DNA from: Spirochaeta thermophila DSM 6192
GTDB lineage: Bacteria > Spirochaetota > Spirochaetia > Winmispirales > Winmispiraceae
Direction: 5' to 3'
Assembly: GCF_000147075.1 (NCBI RefSeq)
Contig: NC_014484.1
Coordinates: 558,001-622,000, forward strand
Length of the DNA stretch: 64,000 bases
Of this stretch, positions 43,277-61,927 are shown piece after piece (position 1 is the stretch's first letter; each line of letters starts with the position of its first letter). Under the pieces are notes generated by a model. That model made no database searches, was not told the DNA's origin, and was given only the letters and a program-made list of their open reading frames with translations. The translations under genes and the position numbers were made by a program.

Positions 43277-44368
43277 ATGGCACGTAAGAACCTCCTTAAG
43301 GGATTTGTGCTACCCACGAGTATCACGGTGGAGCATCTCGATACGAACGCCCATTACGGCAAGTTCGCCGCGTATCCTTTCGAGAGGGGTTACGGTGTGA
43401 CCATCGGGAACACACTCCGGCGGATACTCCTCTCATCGATACAGGGATATGCGATCTCCGCGGTACGTATCACGTGGTACGACGACCAGGGCACGGCCCA
43501 CGTGCTCTCGAGCGAGTACGAGCAGATTCCGGGTGTGGTGGAGGATACCCTGGAGTTGTTCGCCAACCTGAAGCTTCTGAGGGTCCAGTTGCCTGACGAG
43601 ATGGAGCAGAAGACGGTGATGGTGGAGTTCAAGGGGCCGAAGGAGGTGACCGGGGCGGACTTCGAGGTGGATCAGCTCGAGGTGATGAACAAGGACTTCA
43701 GGGTGATGACCCTCATGGAGGATGCGCACTTCGAGATGGAGATGCAGGTGGATCTCGGACGTGGGTACGTACCGGCCGAGGTCCAGAAGAACTATATCGA
43801 GGTCGTGGGGACGATCCCGCTCGATGCGCTCTACTCGCCGATCCAGCGTGTGCGTTTCGATGTGGAGAACACGCGTGTGGGCCACAGGTCGGATTACGAC
43901 AAGCTCATTCTGGAGGTCTGGACGGACGGCTCCATCTCACCGGAGGATGCGCTGGGCGAAGCGGCGAAGCTGGCGAAGGAGCACTTCACGGTCTTCATCA
44001 ACTTCGATGAGGATGCGATCTCCCACGTGCGTCAGCTCGATCACGAGGAGGAACAGATCCGGAGGCTCCTGGAGACCCCGATCGAGGAGCTCGAGCTCTC
44101 GGTGAGGTCGAGCAATTGTCTCAAGAATGCGAATATCCGGACGATCGGAGATCTGGTCTCCAAGAGTGAGGAGGAGCTCTCCAAGACGCGCAACTTCGGG
44201 AAGAAGTCCCTTCTCGAGATAAAGGAGAAGCTCAAGGAGTGGAACCTCTCCCTTGGTATGAGGGACCCCTCTGCATACAAGGCGGCCCTTGAGCGGGTGC
44301 GGCTGCCCGAGAGTCAGGAGAGCGAGTCGACTACAGAGGAAGAGGAGAACGATGAAACACAGGATTAG
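43277..44368 (+). CDS. rpoA: RNA polymerase alpha subunit
   Basis: Alpha dimerises to start polymerase assembly, and its C-terminal domain binds UP elements and activators. The 363 residues show [17 protein letters not shown] near 37 and the C-terminal [20 protein letters not shown] near 282-301. The protein ends with an acidic tail (about 345-363), longer than in E. coli. Its last 17 bases overlap rplQ. Confidence 0.98.
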
Positions 44369-44795
44369 CTTCAACAGGCTTGGTCGTAAGTCGTCTCACA
44401 GGAAGGCCCTTATACGGAACATGGTGACTTCCCTCTTCCGCCACGAGCGGATCAGGACCACCGAGGTGAAGGCCAAGGAGGTGAGGCGGTATGCCGAACG
44501 GCTCATCACCAGAGCCAAGGTGGATTCGGTGCACAACAGGCGGATGGTGGCGCGCTTCGTACAGGACAAGGCGGTGCTTGCCAAGTTGTTCACGGATATC
44601 GCCCCGCGCTTCGTCTCCCGGCCCGGAGGGTATACCCGGGTCTTGAAGCTCGGAGAGCGGAGGGGAGATGCCGCCAGTATGGTGATCCTCGAGCTGGTGG
44701 AGCGGAAGGTCGAGGCGAAGCCCGAGAAGAAGAAGCGTGAGGAAAAGAAGGCCGAGTCGGGCTCCAAGGAAGAGGAAACTGCTGCTCAGGAATAG
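44352..44795 (+). CDS. rplQ: 50S ribosomal protein L17
   Basis: L17 is placed near the tunnel exit. The 147 residues start [20 protein letters not shown] and carry a C-terminal extension rich in Lys and Glu (about 120-147) not found in E. coli L17. GAGGAG precedes the ATG inside the rpoA end. It is the last gene of the cluster. Confidence 0.97.
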
Positions 44796-44819
44796 TGTGG
44801 GTGATCAGCGCCGTATGGA

Positions 44820-44842
44820 GGGGCCGGTGGGCCCCTTTTTTT
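44820..44842 (+). terminator. Terminator of the ribosomal protein cluster
   Basis: GGGGCC (44820-44825), loop GGTG and GGCCCC (44830-44835) are followed by seven T residues. Confidence 0.93.
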
Positions 44843-44852
44843 CGTCCTGGCT

Positions 44853-44881
44853 TTGACATGGCCGCGGCGGAGGGCTATGTT
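44853..44881 (+). promoter_or_regulatory. Promoter of the repeat-protein operon
   Basis: TTGACA (44853-44858), a 17-base gap and TATGTT (44876-44881). It lies directly after the terminator of the ribosomal cluster and about 60 bases before the next start codon. Confidence 0.8.
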
Positions 44882-44942
44882 TTGAAGGGGTAAGTATCCG
44901 GTGTGTTCCTGCCGATGTTGAAGGGGGAGATCAGGTGGTGGT

Positions 44943-47462
44943 ATGAGGAGTGTGCAGAAACTCGGAGTGAGCCTGTTCGTCTCGGTAGTCACGGTGGCCC
45001 TCGTCGTGCTTGCCGGCACCCTGGGGGGGATCCGGGAGGTGGAGGTGCGCCTCCTGCGGCCGCTGGTGACCGAGCACGCCGTGGATCGGCTCGTGGCGGT
45101 GGACGGGCTCATACGCTCGAGGATGGAGGGGTGGAGAGAGTACCTTTCGGGGCTCGCAGCGGATCCTGCGTTCCAGAGGGTCTTCCGGACGAGTCAGTCG
45201 GAAGAGGATGTGCAGAGGCGTTTCGACTTGGTCGCGGAGCTCTCAGCGCGGTTTCCGGAGCTCGGTTTCGTCCGCGTGGTGGGTCTCGACGGGAGGAGGA
45301 TACATTTCAGCACCAGGGCGGAGGATGTACGGGAGCGGTCGGCATCGAGGATCGTGTACCGGAACTGGGACGAGGTGGCCCGGCGGGAGGGGCTGGGCTT
45401 CCGTGAGGGACGGTTCGATGATCGTGATGTCCACCTGGATCCCGCATCACAGGAGGTGGTGGTACGGATCCCCGTGCGTGACGAGCTGGGCGAGGTGGCG
45501 GGGATGCTCTATGCGCACATGCGGGTGGGTGATCTGGGGCTCCTGCTCGCGAAGGAGGGGCTCCTCGCCCCATCGGAACGTCTCCATGTCCTCGATGAGG
45601 GTTCCCTGGTGGTGAGCGGCTCGCTCTCCGCGGAGGAACTTCGCGCCGTGGGTGGGGGGGCGCTCAGGGTGGAGCGGGGGGGAGAGGTGTGGGTGGGGGT
45701 GGAGTATGAGGGGACGGTGGGGCGTCTCGTGGCCTTCCTTCCCGAGGCGGCGTTCAGCCTCTCTCCGTTGCTCATGGCCCTCCTCTTGGGGGTAGTGGGG
45801 ACATCGGTCTTCCTCCTGGTGTTCTTTCTGCTCAATCTGCGTCGGGATCCGGTGGTGGAGGCCTTGAGGCGGCTTCGTAGACTGGAGCGTGAGGTGGTGG
45901 GGGAGGTGCTCGAGGGGAGGGAGGATCTGGAGTGGACGAGGAAGCGGAAGGAGCTCGAAGCGAGGAAGGGGGAGATACGGAGCAGGGTCCTCGAGGGGCT
46001 CAGGGTACCTCCCGATCGGCTTCCGGAGGTGGAGCGGTTCCTCGACAGGGTGTGGGACGAGGTGCTCAGGGTGGCCGAGGCGGTGGTGGGGGAGGGGCCG
46101 CGGCTCCGGCGACTCGAGGAGCTCCTGGAGGATCTGGTGCGACGTTTGGAGGAGGGGGTCGCGGTGAAGGGGGTGCTGCCCGCCGGCGGGGGTGTGGGGG
46201 ATGTGGGGGTGAGGGAGGGAGCGGTTGGCGTGGCGGACGAAGAGGAGGAGATCGGGGAGGTGGAGGAGGTCGGGGAGGTGGAGGAGATCGGGGAGGTGGA
46301 GGAGGTCGGGGAGGTGGAGGAAGTCGGGGAGGTGGAGGAAGTCGGGGAAGTGGAGGAGATCGGGGAGGTGGAGGAGGTCGGGGAAGTGGAGGAAGTCGGG
46401 GAGGTGGAGGAGGTCGGGGAGGTGGAGGAGATTGGGGAGGTGGAGGAGATCGGGGAGGTGGAGGAGGTCGGAGAGGTGGAGGAGATCGGGGAGGTGGAGG
46501 AGATCGGGGAAGTGGAGGAGATCGGGGAAGTGGAGGAGATCGGGGAGGTGGAGGAGGTGTCCATCCCGCAGGGGGCCCTCCCCCCCGAGGACGAAGGGGA
46601 ATTGGTGGCGGTTCTGGAGGAATTCGAACATCTCATCGAGGAGAAGCAGGAGGATGTCGACCGGGAGGTGGGAGGGACTGTGGTCGAGGAGGATGTCGTG
46701 GAGCCCGAGCCTCTTCCCGTGAAAGTGGGGAGTCTCTCCTCCGCGCTCTTCTCCTTCAGACCCGAGTATCGTAGGATCTCTTCCCAGGTGGAGACGGTGG
46801 GGATCCCTCCGGAGCGGAAGGCCCTGTATGAGCGTCTCCTGAGGGAAGAGAAGGTCCGGGTTTTTCCTCTCTCTGTCCTCAGAAGCGGTGGGTTCGTGCA
46901 GCCTCCTGTCGAGGAGGAGAACGGGATCTACAGGATCCGGGAGGAGGTCTATAGGAGAGTGGCTCGGGCACGTGTGGAGGCGCCGCAGGAAGGGCATGGA
47001 GGAGGTCGCAGGCCGGAGCGCCTTCCCCTCGGAGAGGACGGGCTCGAGTACGATCCCTATCTCTCCCGGTTCTCCCGTTCACAGGTGGGGATGCTGAAAT
47101 CGCTCATGGAACTCACCCGCTCAGTGGGTGCGGTCTGTGGAGGTCTCTTCGTGCGGCAGGAGGAGGGGTTCGTGGTGCGCCAGGCCCTGGGGCTCGATGC
47201 GGCGTGGGCGAAGAGGATGCGAATCACCGGTGATGATCCCCTCTGGTCCGAGCTCGCCCAACGGAAGGTGGTGTGGCTAGGCGTACCACTCGAGGAGATC
47301 CCCTGGTACGCTCCGTTCCTCTCTCCCACGGATGCGGCGATGACGCGGCGGAGTCTCTGGCTCCCAGTGTGGCTGGAGGGGAAGGAGGGGTATCTCTTCC
47401 TCGGATACAAGGAAGAGATTGACAGTGTGGAGGAGTATTTGAAATACTTCCTCCACGAATGA
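44943..47462 (+). CDS. Two-TM sensor-like protein with acidic hexapeptide repeats
   Basis: I do not recognise a named family for this 839-residue protein. A membrane helix (about 8-28) is followed by an extracytoplasmic region (about 30-270) that resembles a Cache-type sensor in size and in motifs such as FVRVVGLDGRRIHF. A second helix (274-297) and a charged, probably coiled-coil stretch (300-405) come next. Residues 437-538 are 17 perfect copies of (I/V)GEVEE. The C-terminal part (about 600-839) is globular, and its last 140 residues resemble a GAF-like fold. No kinase, cyclase or methyl-accepting motif is seen. The methyltransferase start overlaps its stop by four bases. A signalling role is inferred from layout only. 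Confidence 0.8.
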   Translation: MRSVQKLGVSLFVSVVTVALVVLAGTLGGIREVEVRLLRPLVTEHAVDRLVAVDGLIRSRMEGWREYLSGLAADPAFQRVFRTSQSEEDVQRRFDLVAELSARFPELGFVRVVGLDGRRIHFSTRAEDVRERSASRIVYRNWDEVARREGLGFREGRFDDRDVHLDPASQEVVVRIPVRDELGEVAGMLYAHMRVGDLGLLLAKEGLLAPSERLHVLDEGSLVVSGSLSAEELRAVGGGALRVERGGEVWVGVEYEGTVGRLVAFLPEAAFSLSPLLMALLLGVVGTSVFLLVFFLLNLRRDPVVEALRRLRRLEREVVGEVLEGREDLEWTRKRKELEARKGEIRSRVLEGLRVPPDRLPEVERFLDRVWDEVLRVAEAVVGEGPRLRRLEELLEDLVRRLEEGVAVKGVLPAGGGVGDVGVREGAVGVADEEEEIGEVEEVGEVEEIGEVEEVGEVEEVGEVEEVGEVEEIGEVEEVGEVEEVGEVEEVGEVEEIGEVEEIGEVEEVGEVEEIGEVEEIGEVEEIGEVEEIGEVEEVSIPQGALPPEDEGELVAVLEEFEHLIEEKQEDVDREVGGTVVEEDVVEPEPLPVKVGSLSSALFSFRPEYRRISSQVETVGIPPERKALYERLLREEKVRVFPLSVLRSGGFVQPPVEEENGIYRIREEVYRRVARARVEAPQEGHGGGRRPERLPLGEDGLEYDPYLSRFSRSQVGMLKSLMELTRSVGAVCGGLFVRQEEGFVVRQALGLDAAWAKRMRITGDDPLWSELAQRKVVWLGVPLEEIPWYAPFLSPTDAAMTRRSLWLPVWLEGKEGYLFLGYKEEIDSVEEYLKYFLHE
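46251..46556 (+). repeat. Tandem 18-bp repeat, 17 copies, in-frame
   Basis: The unit is GAG GA(G/A) (A/G)TC GGG GA(G/A) GTG in rotation, coding (I/V)GEVEE. Copies differ only by I/V at the first residue and by GAG/GAA wobble. Eight units begin with Ile and nine with Val. The near-identity of DNA between copies points to recent expansion by slippage or unequal recombination. Copy-number changes would keep the reading frame. Each copy adds three net negative charges. Confidence 0.97.
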
Positions 47463-48082
47463 GGGAGTTCTTCGATCGTATCCAGGGTTACTATGTCGAA
47501 CGGCTGAAGGAGTTCTCGCGTTCACCCCGGGAACGACATCTGGCGGTGGGCTGGGAGAGCAGGGAGGCCCAGGAACGTCGATTCAGGGTGCTCCTCGATC
47601 ATGTCCCTCTCGAAGGGGGTTCGCTCCTGGATGTGGGGTGCGGTCTGGGGGATCTCTATGGGTTTCTCAAGAGGGAGGGCGTCGCGTGCGACTACACCGG
47701 AGTGGACATCCTCCCTGCAATGGTGGAACAGGCGAGGACTTCCTGGCCGGAGGGGCGCTTCATGGTGGGGGATGTCTGTAGTGAGGATCTCTTTCCCCCG
47801 CACTCCTTCGACGTGGTGTATGCCTCGGGGATGTTCAACCTGAGGGTAGAGGACAACTATGCCTTCCTCGGGCGGGCCCTGGGGGTGTTCCGTTCCCTCG
47901 CCCGGCGGGCGGTGGTGTGTAGTATGCTATCGGTGAAGTCTCCGTTTCCGGAGCCCGAGTACTTCTACTACGAGGTGGATCGGGTGCGTCGGTTGGCGGA
48001 AGCAGGCCCGTGGCGGGTGGAGGTGATGGAGCACTACATGGACAACGATCTTACACTGGTGTGCCGAAAGGGGGGGCTGTGA
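47459..48082 (+). CDS. Class I SAM-dependent methyltransferase
   Basis: This 207-residue protein has the Rossmann methyltransferase core. Motif I is LLDVGCGLGDLYGFL (57-71), the acidic strand end is YTGVDIL near 80, and motif II/III is GRFMVGDVCSEDLF near 100. FDVVYASGMFNLR follows near 117. The N-terminal YYVERLKEFSRSPRERHLAVGW segment may bind the substrate. The target (protein, small molecule or RNA) is unknown. The ATG overlaps the stop of the repeat protein (ATGA) and its stop overlaps rnhA (GTGA), so translation of all three is probably coupled. Confidence 0.85.
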   Translation: MREFFDRIQGYYVERLKEFSRSPRERHLAVGWESREAQERRFRVLLDHVPLEGGSLLDVGCGLGDLYGFLKREGVACDYTGVDILPAMVEQARTSWPEGRFMVGDVCSEDLFPPHSFDVVYASGMFNLRVEDNYAFLGRALGVFRSLARRAVVCSMLSVKSPFPEPEYFYYEVDRVRRLAEAGPWRVEVMEHYMDNDLTLVCRKGGL

Positions 48083-48510
48083 TAGAGGTGTATACCGACG
48101 GTGCGTGCAAGGGGAATCCCGGTCCGGGTGGATGGGCCTACGTGGTGGTGAGGGACGGTGAGGGTGAGGGGGCGTTCGGGGGTGAGAGGATGACGACCAA
48201 CAACCGGATGGAGCTCCTTGCGGTGATCAAGGCCTTGGAGCGGGTGGATGCGGGGGGGAGGGTGCGGGTGTATACCGATTCGGAGTACGTACGGCGCGGG
48301 ATCACCGAGTGGATCGACAGGTGGCTCGCGAACGGATGGAAGACGAGGGACAGGAGGGATGTGAAGAACCGCGACCTGTGGGAGCGGCTGTGGCGGCTCG
48401 CCGCGGAGGTGGAGCTCGAGTGGGTCTGGGTGCAGGGGCATGCGGGGGTGGGGTGGAACGAGGTGTGCGACCGGATGGCCCATCTGGCGGCGCTCAAGGC
48501 AGGAGGATGA
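48079..48510 (+). CDS. rnhA: Ribonuclease HI
   Basis: RNase HI cuts RNA in RNA-DNA hybrids, removing R-loops and primers. The 143 residues show the active site Asp7, Glu45, Asp67 and Asp131, plus His121 in GHAG. The WxxxGWKTRDRRDVKNRDLW basic handle region is near 82-101. The start is a GTG at 48079 that overlaps the methyltransferase stop. Confidence 0.95.
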   Translation: MIEVYTDGACKGNPGPGGWAYVVVRDGEGEGAFGGERMTTNNRMELLAVIKALERVDAGGRVRVYTDSEYVRRGITEWIDRWLANGWKTRDRRDVKNRDLWERLWRLAAEVELEWVWVQGHAGVGWNEVCDRMAHLAALKAGG

Positions 48511-48553
48511 AGCGGGGCGTGCGGTGCGGATGTCAGAGGGGGTGGGAGGTGCC

Positions 48554-50086
48554 ATGCAGGTGGTGAGTTTCCTTCCCTGGGGATATGAGGGGATCGTGGT
48601 ACGGGTGGAGGTGGATATCAGGAAGGGGATACCGGGGGTCGAGGTGGTGGGGTTCGCCGGAACGGCGGTGAAGGAGGCGCGGGAGAGGATCAGGGTGGCG
48701 CTCAAGAACAGTGGCTTCTCCTTTCCTCAGAAGCGCGTACTCATCAATCTCGCACCGGCGGGGTTACCCAAGAAGGGGGCCTGGTACGATCTGGCGATCG
48801 CGCTCGCCCTCCTCGCGGCTTCGGGGCAGGTGGAGGCCGCGGAGGGGGTGGTCCTGGTGATGGGCGAGTTGCGTCTTTCGGGCGAGGTCCTGCCGGTGGA
48901 AGGGGTACTGTCCAGCCTGATCGCGGCGAGGAGGGAGGGGGTGCGGGTGGCGGTTGTGCCGGCGGCGAACGTGGCCGAGGCCACGGTGGTGAAGGGGGTG
49001 CGGGTCTTCGGGGTGGGATCGCTGGAGGAGGCGGTGGAGGTGGTGGAGGCCGGGTTCCCGGAGGACCGGGAGGAGAAGGGGACGGGGGTCGGAGTCGAGG
49101 AGGAATGGGAGCACGATTTCTCCTCCTTCAAGGGACAGACCTATCTGCGTCGCGCCCTCGAGGTGGCGGCGGCCGGGGGACACCACGTCTTCCTCTTCGG
49201 GCCTCCCGGTTCGGGCAAGACCATGGGGGCCTACACCTTCCCCTCGATCCTCCCTCCCCTTTCGGAGGAGGAGCGCCTCGAGGTGCTCCAGGTCTACTCG
49301 CTCGCCGGTGAGCTCCAGAACGGCTCACGGAGGACCTACTCGAATCGGCGCCCCTTCCGAGCCCCCCACCACTCCGCCACGGTGGAGGGCATGGTGGGAG
49401 GGGGGAAGGAGGTACGTCCCGGAGAGATCTCGCTCGCTCATCAGGGTGTGCTCTTCATGGACGAGGCGCCGGAGTTTCGCGCCTCCATCCTCCAGAGTCT
49501 CCGAGAACCCATAGAGACGGGCCGCATCACCCTCTCCCGGGCCGGACACTCCTTCTGGTATCCTGCGCGTTTCCAGCTCATCCTCGCCGCCAACCCCTGC
49601 CCATGCGGCAACCTGGGGAGGGAGGGCGCGGTCTGCGCCTGCAGTGTGCAGGAGATAAAGCGCTACTGGCGGAAGATCGGGGCACCGCTCCTCGACCGCA
49701 TCGACATCCGATTCCCCGTGAGCCCGGAGTCACCCGAGGTCCTCCTCTCCGATCGTCCTGAGCCGAGCGCTGCGGTGAGGGAGCGGGTGGAGCGCGCCTG
49801 GGCCATCCAGCGGGAGCGGTTCGCAGGGAGAGAGTATTCAAGGAACGCCTCGATGACTCCGGAGGAGGTGGAGACCCACTGCCGCCTGGGAGACGAGGAG
49901 CAACGCCTGCTCCTCAAGGCGGTGGAACAGCTCTCCCTCTCCTCCCGGGCCTGCGCCTCGATCCTCAAGCTCGCACGGACCATCGCCGATCTCGAGGGGT
50001 CCGAGCGTATCCAGAAGGATCATCTCCTCGAGGCGGTGCACTACAGACGATACGGCGACATGGACTTTTTCTGGTCGGAGCTCTGA
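48554..50086 (+). CDS. comM: ComM/YifB-type AAA+ ATPase (magnesium chelatase-like)
   Basis: ComM-family proteins are hexameric branch-migration helicases that extend heteroduplex during natural transformation. The 510 residues comprise an N-terminal Lon-like domain (about 1-170, GIPGVEVVGFAGTAVKEARERI), an AAA+ core with Walker A GPPGSGKTMG near 216 and Walker B LFMDEAPEF near 305, a Cys-rich NPCPCGNLG loop near 346, and a C-terminal chelatase-like domain. The ATG at 48554 follows GGGAGG; an ATG at 48530 is an alternative. No other competence gene is in the window. Confidence 0.93.
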   Translation: MQVVSFLPWGYEGIVVRVEVDIRKGIPGVEVVGFAGTAVKEARERIRVALKNSGFSFPQKRVLINLAPAGLPKKGAWYDLAIALALLAASGQVEAAEGVVLVMGELRLSGEVLPVEGVLSSLIAARREGVRVAVVPAANVAEATVVKGVRVFGVGSLEEAVEVVEAGFPEDREEKGTGVGVEEEWEHDFSSFKGQTYLRRALEVAAAGGHHVFLFGPPGSGKTMGAYTFPSILPPLSEEERLEVLQVYSLAGELQNGSRRTYSNRRPFRAPHHSATVEGMVGGGKEVRPGEISLAHQGVLFMDEAPEFRASILQSLREPIETGRITLSRAGHSFWYPARFQLILAANPCPCGNLGREGAVCACSVQEIKRYWRKIGAPLLDRIDIRFPVSPESPEVLLSDRPEPSAAVRERVERAWAIQRERFAGREYSRNASMTPEEVETHCRLGDEEQRLLLKAVEQLSLSSRACASILKLARTIADLEGSERIQKDHLLEAVHYRRYGDMDFFWSEL

Positions 50087-60535: not shown

Positions 60536-61927
60536 TCACCCCGGGAGGCGTATGGTGAAGGTGGTGCCGTGCCCGGGGGTGCTGTGCACGTCGATGGTAC
60601 CTTTGTGTGCCTGGACGATGTGCTTGACGATGGAGAGGCCGAGGCCGGTGCCGCCGGTGGCGCGCGATCTGGAGGTGTCCACCCGGTAGAATCGTTCGAA
60701 GATGCGGGGGAGGGCCTCGGGTGGGATGCCGGGGCCGCGGTCCTCCACCTGGATGAGGACGGATGAGCCGGTGCTTCTCCACCGTACCACCACGGGGGTG
60801 CCGGGTGGGGTGTGGGTGAGGGCGTTGTGGATGAGATTGTAGAGGGCCTGGACCATGAGGCCGGGGTTGAGGGGGAGCGCGAGGTCCTCCGGGCCTTCGA
60901 GGGTGAGGGGATGGGTCTCGCCTCTGGCTTGCCGTACGAGCTCCACGGCCCTCCGGATGAGTGGGGCGAGGGGTGCGCGTTCGAGGGGTACGGGGGCCTC
61001 CGCCTGCTCGATGCGGGAGAGGAGCAGGAGGTCTTCGATGATCTGGTGGAGGCGGTGGGTGTGTGAGAGGGCGGTCTCGAGGAAGCGCGTGCGGGTGGCC
61101 TCGTCGTCCGGGGGGAGGTCTTTGAGGGTCTCGAGGTAGCCGAGGACGGTGGTGATGGGGGTCTTGAGTTCGTGGGAGACGCTGGAGACGAAGTCGCGGC
61201 GGATCTGCTCGAGCCGTTCGAGGCGGGTGATGTCGCTCGCCACGAGGAGGAGGCGCTCCGAGGGGGAGGGGGGGAGGGGGATGAGGTGGAGTCGGATGGT
61301 TCTGGAGGAGGGGGGTGGGGTGGTGAGGGTGTGGGTGAGGGGGGTGCCTGAGGAGAGGGTCCTGTGGATGTGCTCGAGGAGGGAGGTGGAGCGGAGGAAT
61401 TGGGGGAGGGGTTTCAGGCGGTGCTCGGGGGGGAGGGAGAGGATCTCGAGGGCGCGTGGGTTGGCGTAGGTGATGCGGAGGCGGCCGTCCGTGACCACGA
61501 TCCCCTCTTCCATGTGGGTGAGCACGGTGTGGTAGAGGTGGCTCTCGGCGGTGAGGTCTTGGAGGCGGGTGTGGGTCTGGCCGAGGGTGTGGAGCAGGGC
61601 CTCCTCGAGGGGCTGAAGGGCCCGGGAGAAGGGGTTGGTGAGGGTTCTGGTGTGGGGGAGGAGGGGGGGAGGGGTGGTGAGGAGGCGGCGCTTGAGGGTG
61701 CGGAGGGTGCGGCGGAGGTGGAGGGCGTGGTGGAGGAGGAGGGAGGCGATGAGGAGGGTCTGGAGGAGGAGGGCGAGGAGGGGTGGGGTGAGGGGAAGCG
61801 CGAGGGGGAGGAGCGAGAGGGCGAGGATGGGGAGGAGGGGGAGGAGGAGGCGGACCGGCCAGAGCGGGTCAGACCGGCTGGAGGCGGTAGCCGACTCCCC
61901 GGACGGTCTGGATGTAGTCTCGTGCAT
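60536..61927 (-). CDS. phoR: Phosphate sensor histidine kinase PhoR
   Basis: This 463-residue kinase has two membrane segments in a Leu/Pro-rich stretch (about 27-66), a PAS domain (about 130-235), a HisKA domain with phosphoacceptor His252 in SVSHELKTP, and a HATPase domain (N box NLIHNALTH, G1 DRGPGIPP, G2 GGTGLGLSI). No large periplasmic domain is present, as in PhoR. The only suitable start, ATG 61927 with AGGAAG upstream, overlaps phoB by 59 bases. Codon use is strikingly C-rich (Leu CTC, Pro, Thr, His). Identity as PhoR rests on the phoU-phoB context. Confidence 0.92.
   Translation of the reverse strand: MHETTSRPSGESATASSRSDPLWPVRLLLPLLPILALSLLPLALPLTPPLLALLLQTLLIASLLLHHALHLRRTLRTLKRRLLTTPPPLLPHTRTLTNPFSRALQPLEEALLHTLGQTHTRLQDLTAESHLYHTVLTHMEEGIVVTDGRLRITYANPRALEILSLPPEHRLKPLPQFLRSTSLLEHIHRTLSSGTPLTHTLTTPPPSSRTIRLHLIPLPPSPSERLLLVASDITRLERLEQIRRDFVSSVSHELKTPITTVLGYLETLKDLPPDDEATRTRFLETALSHTHRLHQIIEDLLLLSRIEQAEAPVPLERAPLAPLIRRAVELVRQARGETHPLTLEGPEDLALPLNPGLMVQALYNLIHNALTHTPPGTPVVVRWRSTGSSVLIQVEDRGPGIPPEALPRIFERFYRVDTSRSRATGGTGLGLSIVKHIVQAHKGTIDVHSTPGHGTTFTIRLPG

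Follow-up and report, generated by a model that had tools for sequence, protein, structure and literature searches.

A spirochaete sensor family with a probable disordered acidic tether built on a three-residue rhythm

Introduction

Several described systems resemble parts of the protein considered here. In dCache receptors (the sensor domains of PscC, PctA, Mlp24 and KinD), an extracytoplasmic two-lobed fold is set between two transmembrane (TM) helices, an arrangement predicted for our protein as well. GAF domains, such as those of PtsP (3trc) and Lcd1 (5w10), have their fold in common with its modelled residues ~696–838. Arp (tp0433) and TP0470 of Treponema pallidum are spirochaete proteins with acidic or charged tandem repeats of variable copy number, a combination likewise found in the sensor array described below (PMC9531955). 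With regard to acidic chains in general, fully ionised poly-L-glutamate is described as locally polyproline II (PMC4192670).

Here we describe a membrane sensor-like protein encoded in a 64,000-nucleotide stretch of Spirochaeta thermophila DSM 6192 DNA (the whole stretch analysed, hereafter the window). We argue that the repeat array of this protein is probably one local version of a feature long established in spirochaetes, namely a disordered, extended, acidic cytoplasmic tether in which acidity and a hydrophobic (phi) rhythm would be under selection and length would vary by slippage.

Results

A single-copy gene family downstream of rplQ

The sensor gene directly follows rplQ (called from its Pfam match) in the order rpoA–rplQ–sensor gene–methyltransferase–rnhA–comM (window positions 43277–50086, contig C1 of genome G000). 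The core of this arrangement, rpoA–rplQ–gene–rnhA, recurs in several families or deep lineages of the class; in Treponema-like genomes, the gene is located elsewhere, not between rpoA–rplQ and rnhA–comM. Of 158 genomes sampled from the class, 93 yielded orthologs in a broad profile search, nearly always single-copy, and a few genomes of other classes within the phylum carry the family too. The gene was absent from most sampled genomes of one genus with Borrelia-like genome sizes (g7); the members of family f11 that were sampled lack it as well.

Searched against its own genome, the full-length protein matched itself and no other copy. An EE-phi pattern (12 protein letters not shown) had zero matches in that genome, the array included, which it misses because of the array's glycine; Treponema putidum was the only named relative in the pattern scans. 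No Pfam or NCBIfam model covers the family (window protein plus 33 members), phage families gave no match, and a literature search found no paper on it. From its position beside TP0594, the adjacent gene on the opposite strand, the ortholog in a T. pallidum-size genome (G050) is probably TP0593, of which a search under the likely T. pallidum locus numbers found no mention.

FliG_N was present in all 20 gene-positive genomes tested versus 15 of 23 gene-negative ones, counts confounded by genome choice and shared descent, so that a link to flagella is suggestive only. In genus g7, FliG is present and the sensor gene absent.

Table 1. Features of the sensor gene and its product, in window coordinates
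Feature	Coordinates	Strand	Basis
Gene for 839-aa membrane sensor-like protein	44943..47462	+	ORF; orthologs; conserved neighbours
First TM helix, start of long N-terminal helix (approximate)	44949..45020	+	Hydrophobic stretch; AF2 helix from residue 3
Extracytoplasmic double-Cache-like sensor domain (predicted), ~residues 36–276	45048..45770	+	AF2 pLDDT mostly 80–95; Foldseek; VIA
Second TM helix, residues 275–300, ends NLRRDP	45765..45842	+	AF2; sequence; conserved in family alignment
Juxtamembrane helical stalk, ~residues 301–405, W371 nearly invariant	45843..46157	+	Conservation; AF2
17 tandem (I/V)GEVEE units, probable acidic unfolded tether	46251..46556	+	TRF; sister comparison; AF2; cross-family array comparison
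Rest of acidic linker, non-repetitive	46557..46808	+	Sequence; mostly low pLDDT
Short conserved motif E-x-NG-I-Y-x-I ...	46908..46980	+	Sequence comparison
C-terminal GAF-like domain (predicted), ~residues 696–839	47028..47459	+	AF2 pLDDT about 90; Foldseek; VIA

Predicted architecture of the sensor protein

The window protein was modelled with AlphaFold2 (AF2) on 33 relatives, yielding the order TM helix, double-Cache fold, TM helix, conserved helical stalk, acidic linker, and short conserved motif and/or GAF-like domain (Table 1). The sensor domain matched 6mni in Foldseek (E 4.6e-5) and dCache domains including 2p7j, 3lid and 6mni in VIA (Z 11–11.7). Pfam dCache_1 scored 11.7 bits against the window protein versus a gathering score of 45, and reached E 0.01 or better in 2 of 33 relatives; the dCache resemblance is one of predicted fold only. 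For the C-terminal domain, 3trc was found by Foldseek (E 4.6e-4) and VIA (Z 9.4), and Pfam GAF had no match in the window protein. A PDB sequence search returned a single match (E 0.017), over the helical stretch, which we take as chance.

By the positive-inside rule, the sequence NLRRDP after the second TM helix would put the stalk, the array and the GAF-like domain on the cytoplasmic side. As Pfam and NCBIfam detected no kinase, chemoreceptor, cyclase/GGDEF or catalytic output domain in 33 members, signal output would be through protein–protein contact. The short motif near the C-terminus corresponds to an xDGVFxI ... DxxFKxLVDSVL tail in relatives lacking the GAF-like domain. In a separate AF2 model of a Treponema relative, which has the same plan without GAF, this conserved tail forms a small hairpin (strand pair) and a helix.

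Residues 402–621 are unfolded in the window model, with pLDDT about 30 across the array, and the array of EELDEVEEAEAV repeats in the Treponema relative is likewise unfolded; low pLDDT is a prediction and does not prove disorder in the cell. An earlier note on this DNA had proposed a sensor-like membrane protein with an extended acidic segment between a coiled coil and a C-terminal domain, and had called for a structure prediction of the array; the double-Cache fold between two TM helices, the unfolded stretch between stalk and C-terminal domain, and the lack of a stable predicted fold for the array all agree with it.

One could imagine that the linker folds back onto its own basic juxtamembrane stalk as an electrostatic clamp that is released on signalling, and the stalk does contain locally basic patches (RRLRRLEREV, RKRKELEARK). 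However, over its ~115 residues the stalk carries a family-average net charge of only +1.9, and that of the window protein carries none, leaving such a clamp very improbable in our judgement.

A 17-unit array that turns over as whole units

The array consists of 17 unbroken 18-base units, translated as IGEVEE (9) or VGEVEE (8) and amounting to 102 amino acids (residues 437–538). TRF reported it at 46244–46556 (period 18, 17.4 copies, 92% matches) with a score of 507, as compared to a maximum of 60 in shuffled windows. Its composition (E51 V25 G17 I9) results in a charge of −51 over 102 residues. Both the uninterrupted run of perfect repeats and the charge of −3 per unit had been read correctly in the earlier note. 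Other ORFs spanning the array, on either strand, are due to repeat composition. The second-strongest tandem-repeat signal of the window (61702–61854, score 125) falls on the strand opposite a PhoR-like histidine kinase gene (60536–61927, minus strand), where that gene encodes its leucine-rich N-terminal membrane part, and resembles the product of ordinary codon bias.

So high a charge, together with dense acidic residues in nearly all relatives, would suit a divalent-cation or polyamine sensor, in which the array contracts or folds on Ca2+/Mg2+ and relays this to the GAF-like domain or the stalk. Yet neither a ligating geometry nor an Asp/Gly motif is conserved, the number of sites is not fixed, and units and copy numbers vary widely; we consider this reading improbable.

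Array copies differ by 1.46 per 18 bases on average (maximum 4), at unit positions 1, 3, 6, 9 and 18, and these differences are silent except for the I/V toggle. In a sister genome (2,560,222 bases; the window's genome comprises 2,472,645 bases in a single contig), the same protein carries 11 units, one of them IEEVEE, with flanking DNA identical to the window at 92.5% (5′) and 95.8% (3′). The two genomes share only part of their unit variants: GAA at base 9 is found in the window only, and GGA at base 6 in 5 of 11 sister units versus 1 of 17 window units. Therefore, both arrays have turned over since the strains split. The variable repeat number foreseen in the earlier note, and proposed there as a check across strains, is thus seen as 17 versus 11 units and in assembly breaks at the site. 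Its view of a young array of near-identical copies holds for the turnover and the private variants, but calling the array very young is too strong, since divergence between copies is on a par with that between the two genomes (mean pairwise difference 8% within the array, versus 4–7% in the flanks).

In a third genome of the same family, the gene is divided between two contig ends precisely at the array site. Class-wide, 8 of 37 minus-strand matches run off their contig within ~500 bases past the stalk, compared to 1 of 42 plus-strand matches running off on the upstream side (Fisher p 0.008), as expected if repeats past the stalk defeat short-read assembly. One assembly (L045, G252) has a run of N within its array. 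In this locus and in L109 (G017), the frame apparently shifts or breaks right after the array, by assembly error or a real frameshift.

Acidity and a three-residue rhythm are kept across the phylum

Linker net charge per residue was below −0.1 in all 59 orthologs measured and in 19 of 20 further genomes (78/79 in total); in the lone exception (+0.07), the frame seems to have shifted directly after the array. When acidic residues were compared with shuffles of the same segment, a significant periodicity of three residues was found in 45 of the 59 orthologs and 18 of the 20 further genomes (63/79), leaving 14 of the 59 without significant rhythm. As orthologs share descent, all these counts are of non-independent samples. 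The order is hydrophobic, acidic, acidic, even as the units themselves are unlike between lineages (GEVEE, LEEAEE, AEAEEL, EELDEVEEAEAV, VEELDSADE, EELDEV, DLEEVE). In 24 of 25 arrays with a clear repeat unit, the number of residues per unit was divisible by three, a count that is partly built in, for slippage on an existing 9-base rhythm tends to produce it. Acidity and a hydrophobic residue at every third position are kept across the phylum at the same site of the protein.

This rhythm bears on whether the array folds, be it as an acidic coiled coil, a single alpha helix or a repeat solenoid serving as rigid rod or length ruler. Helix-forming Glu, Ala and Leu are abundant in many units, and one relative (L071) does show a 3.5-residue rhythm. 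In the window array, by contrast, power was 14.1 at 3.0 residues versus 0.1 at 3.5 and 0.2 at 3.6, with no heptad or hendecad hydrophobic rhythm of the coiled-coil type, and the same contrast holds in most relatives. An amphipathic alpha helix or a coiled coil would call for a rhythm of 3.5–3.6 rather than 3.0, and in two dissimilar arrays AF2 placed neither helix nor strand. The left-handed beta-helix hexapeptide [LIV]-[GAED]-X2-[STAV]-X, with its hydrophobic and small residues two apart, does not describe I-G-E-V-E-E, which in either register has Glu or Gly at the [STAV] position. A difference between 17 and 11 units would be incompatible with a ruler, and the free variation in length argues against one more generally. 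Taken together, a folded array appears quite improbable. The earlier note had held the glycine at every sixth residue to argue against a simple long helix; this glycine is a local feature of Spirochaeta thermophila that most relatives lack.

Some relatives depart from the common pattern. The acidic linker of L071 (G285, residues ~439–593) has a heptad rhythm in place of 3.0 and may be a real acidic coiled coil substituting for the usual array. In L053, L056, L076 and L077, all of one Treponema-like subgroup, the triplet array is lost and longer ETNTEIVNAATETEEAFFEN-type repeats occupy the same linker. In the T. pallidum-size genome, the linker (L073, residues 450–603) is short, degraded and acidic, with the array almost absent. 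Given the short or weakly acidic linkers in this genome and in G258 and G261, the array is not indispensable.

At the DNA level, mismatches between copies numbered 475, 446 and 1215 at codon positions 1, 2 and 3 (57% third position), pointing to selection on the amino acids. The DNA word itself is not conserved, as GAA usage within arrays varied between 13% and 100%, and the same amino-acid pattern is kept in genomes of 25–69% coding GC. These data weigh against a role of the repeat as DNA (a purine-rich tract, non-B structure or recombination site) rather than as protein. Such a role would fit the purine-rich plus strand of the 18-base repeat and the breaks of assemblies at the array, but AT-rich relatives use GAA and other DNA words with frame and protein pattern kept, and mismatches are concentrated at silent positions. 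We regard it as extremely improbable.

Measured linkers span 55 to 920 residues. Between close relatives, linker length and sequence change much more quickly than the N-terminal part does (in one pair, 75% versus 96% identity). Free variation in length is what an entropic spacer would predict, for which any soluble unfolded linker suffices and acidic repeats are the slippage product of a GA-rich seed; some relatives also have weakly repetitive, less acidic linkers. Against it, acidity and rhythm are retained in the proportions given above despite rapid turnover, between-copy changes are in excess at third positions, and the amino-acid pattern stays constant over the whole range of coding GC. 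A purely entropic spacer is an unlikely alternative to a selected acidic tether.

Discussion

In the selected-tether reading that we favour, the tether would run from the membrane-bound double-Cache sensor, with its helical stalk, to the short conserved docking motif and, in the Spirochaeta thermophila lineage, on to the GAF-like domain. Charge repulsion would hold the chain extended. A polyproline-II-like extended chain has three residues per turn; on geometric grounds, it is only in such a chain that the three-residue rhythm would put hydrophobic side chains on one face. This hydrophobic stripe, combined with the negative charge, could allow weak binding of a partner at many sites. Exact length would then be immaterial, and copy number would shift by slippage or unequal recombination with frame and rhythm always kept. 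A bolder version, to which we give rather little credence, is that sensors throughout the spirochaetes signal via a self-renewing phi-E-E array, an amphipathic polyproline-II-like polyelectrolyte offering many weak docking sites, with rhythm and charge selected and length and units free.

One odd repeat has led to a pattern seen class-wide, in which a single-copy sensor family without a catalogue entry retains a charged three-residue rhythm at one site, where the units are repeatedly replaced. The family offers a clean test case for selection on disordered regions that cannot be aligned letter by letter, and represents an unexplored signalling protein common to treponemes and free-living spirochaetes.

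As for known systems, the ChePep, SclA and LED-repeat profiles gave weak scores that reflect low-complexity acidic or Gly-rich composition only (ChePep, LED repeat and Scl profiles at 12–23 bits in the window protein versus cut-offs of 59–650). Unlike the dCache receptors whose fold it is predicted to share, the window protein is without a histidine kinase, chemoreceptor signalling or GGDEF output domain, and its GAF-like domain is missing from the Treponema relatives of the sensor. By their published descriptions, Arp and TP0470 have repeat units unlike those of the sensor array; in the T. pallidum-size genome, the sensor-family gene is found at another locus than these two and is almost devoid of an array.
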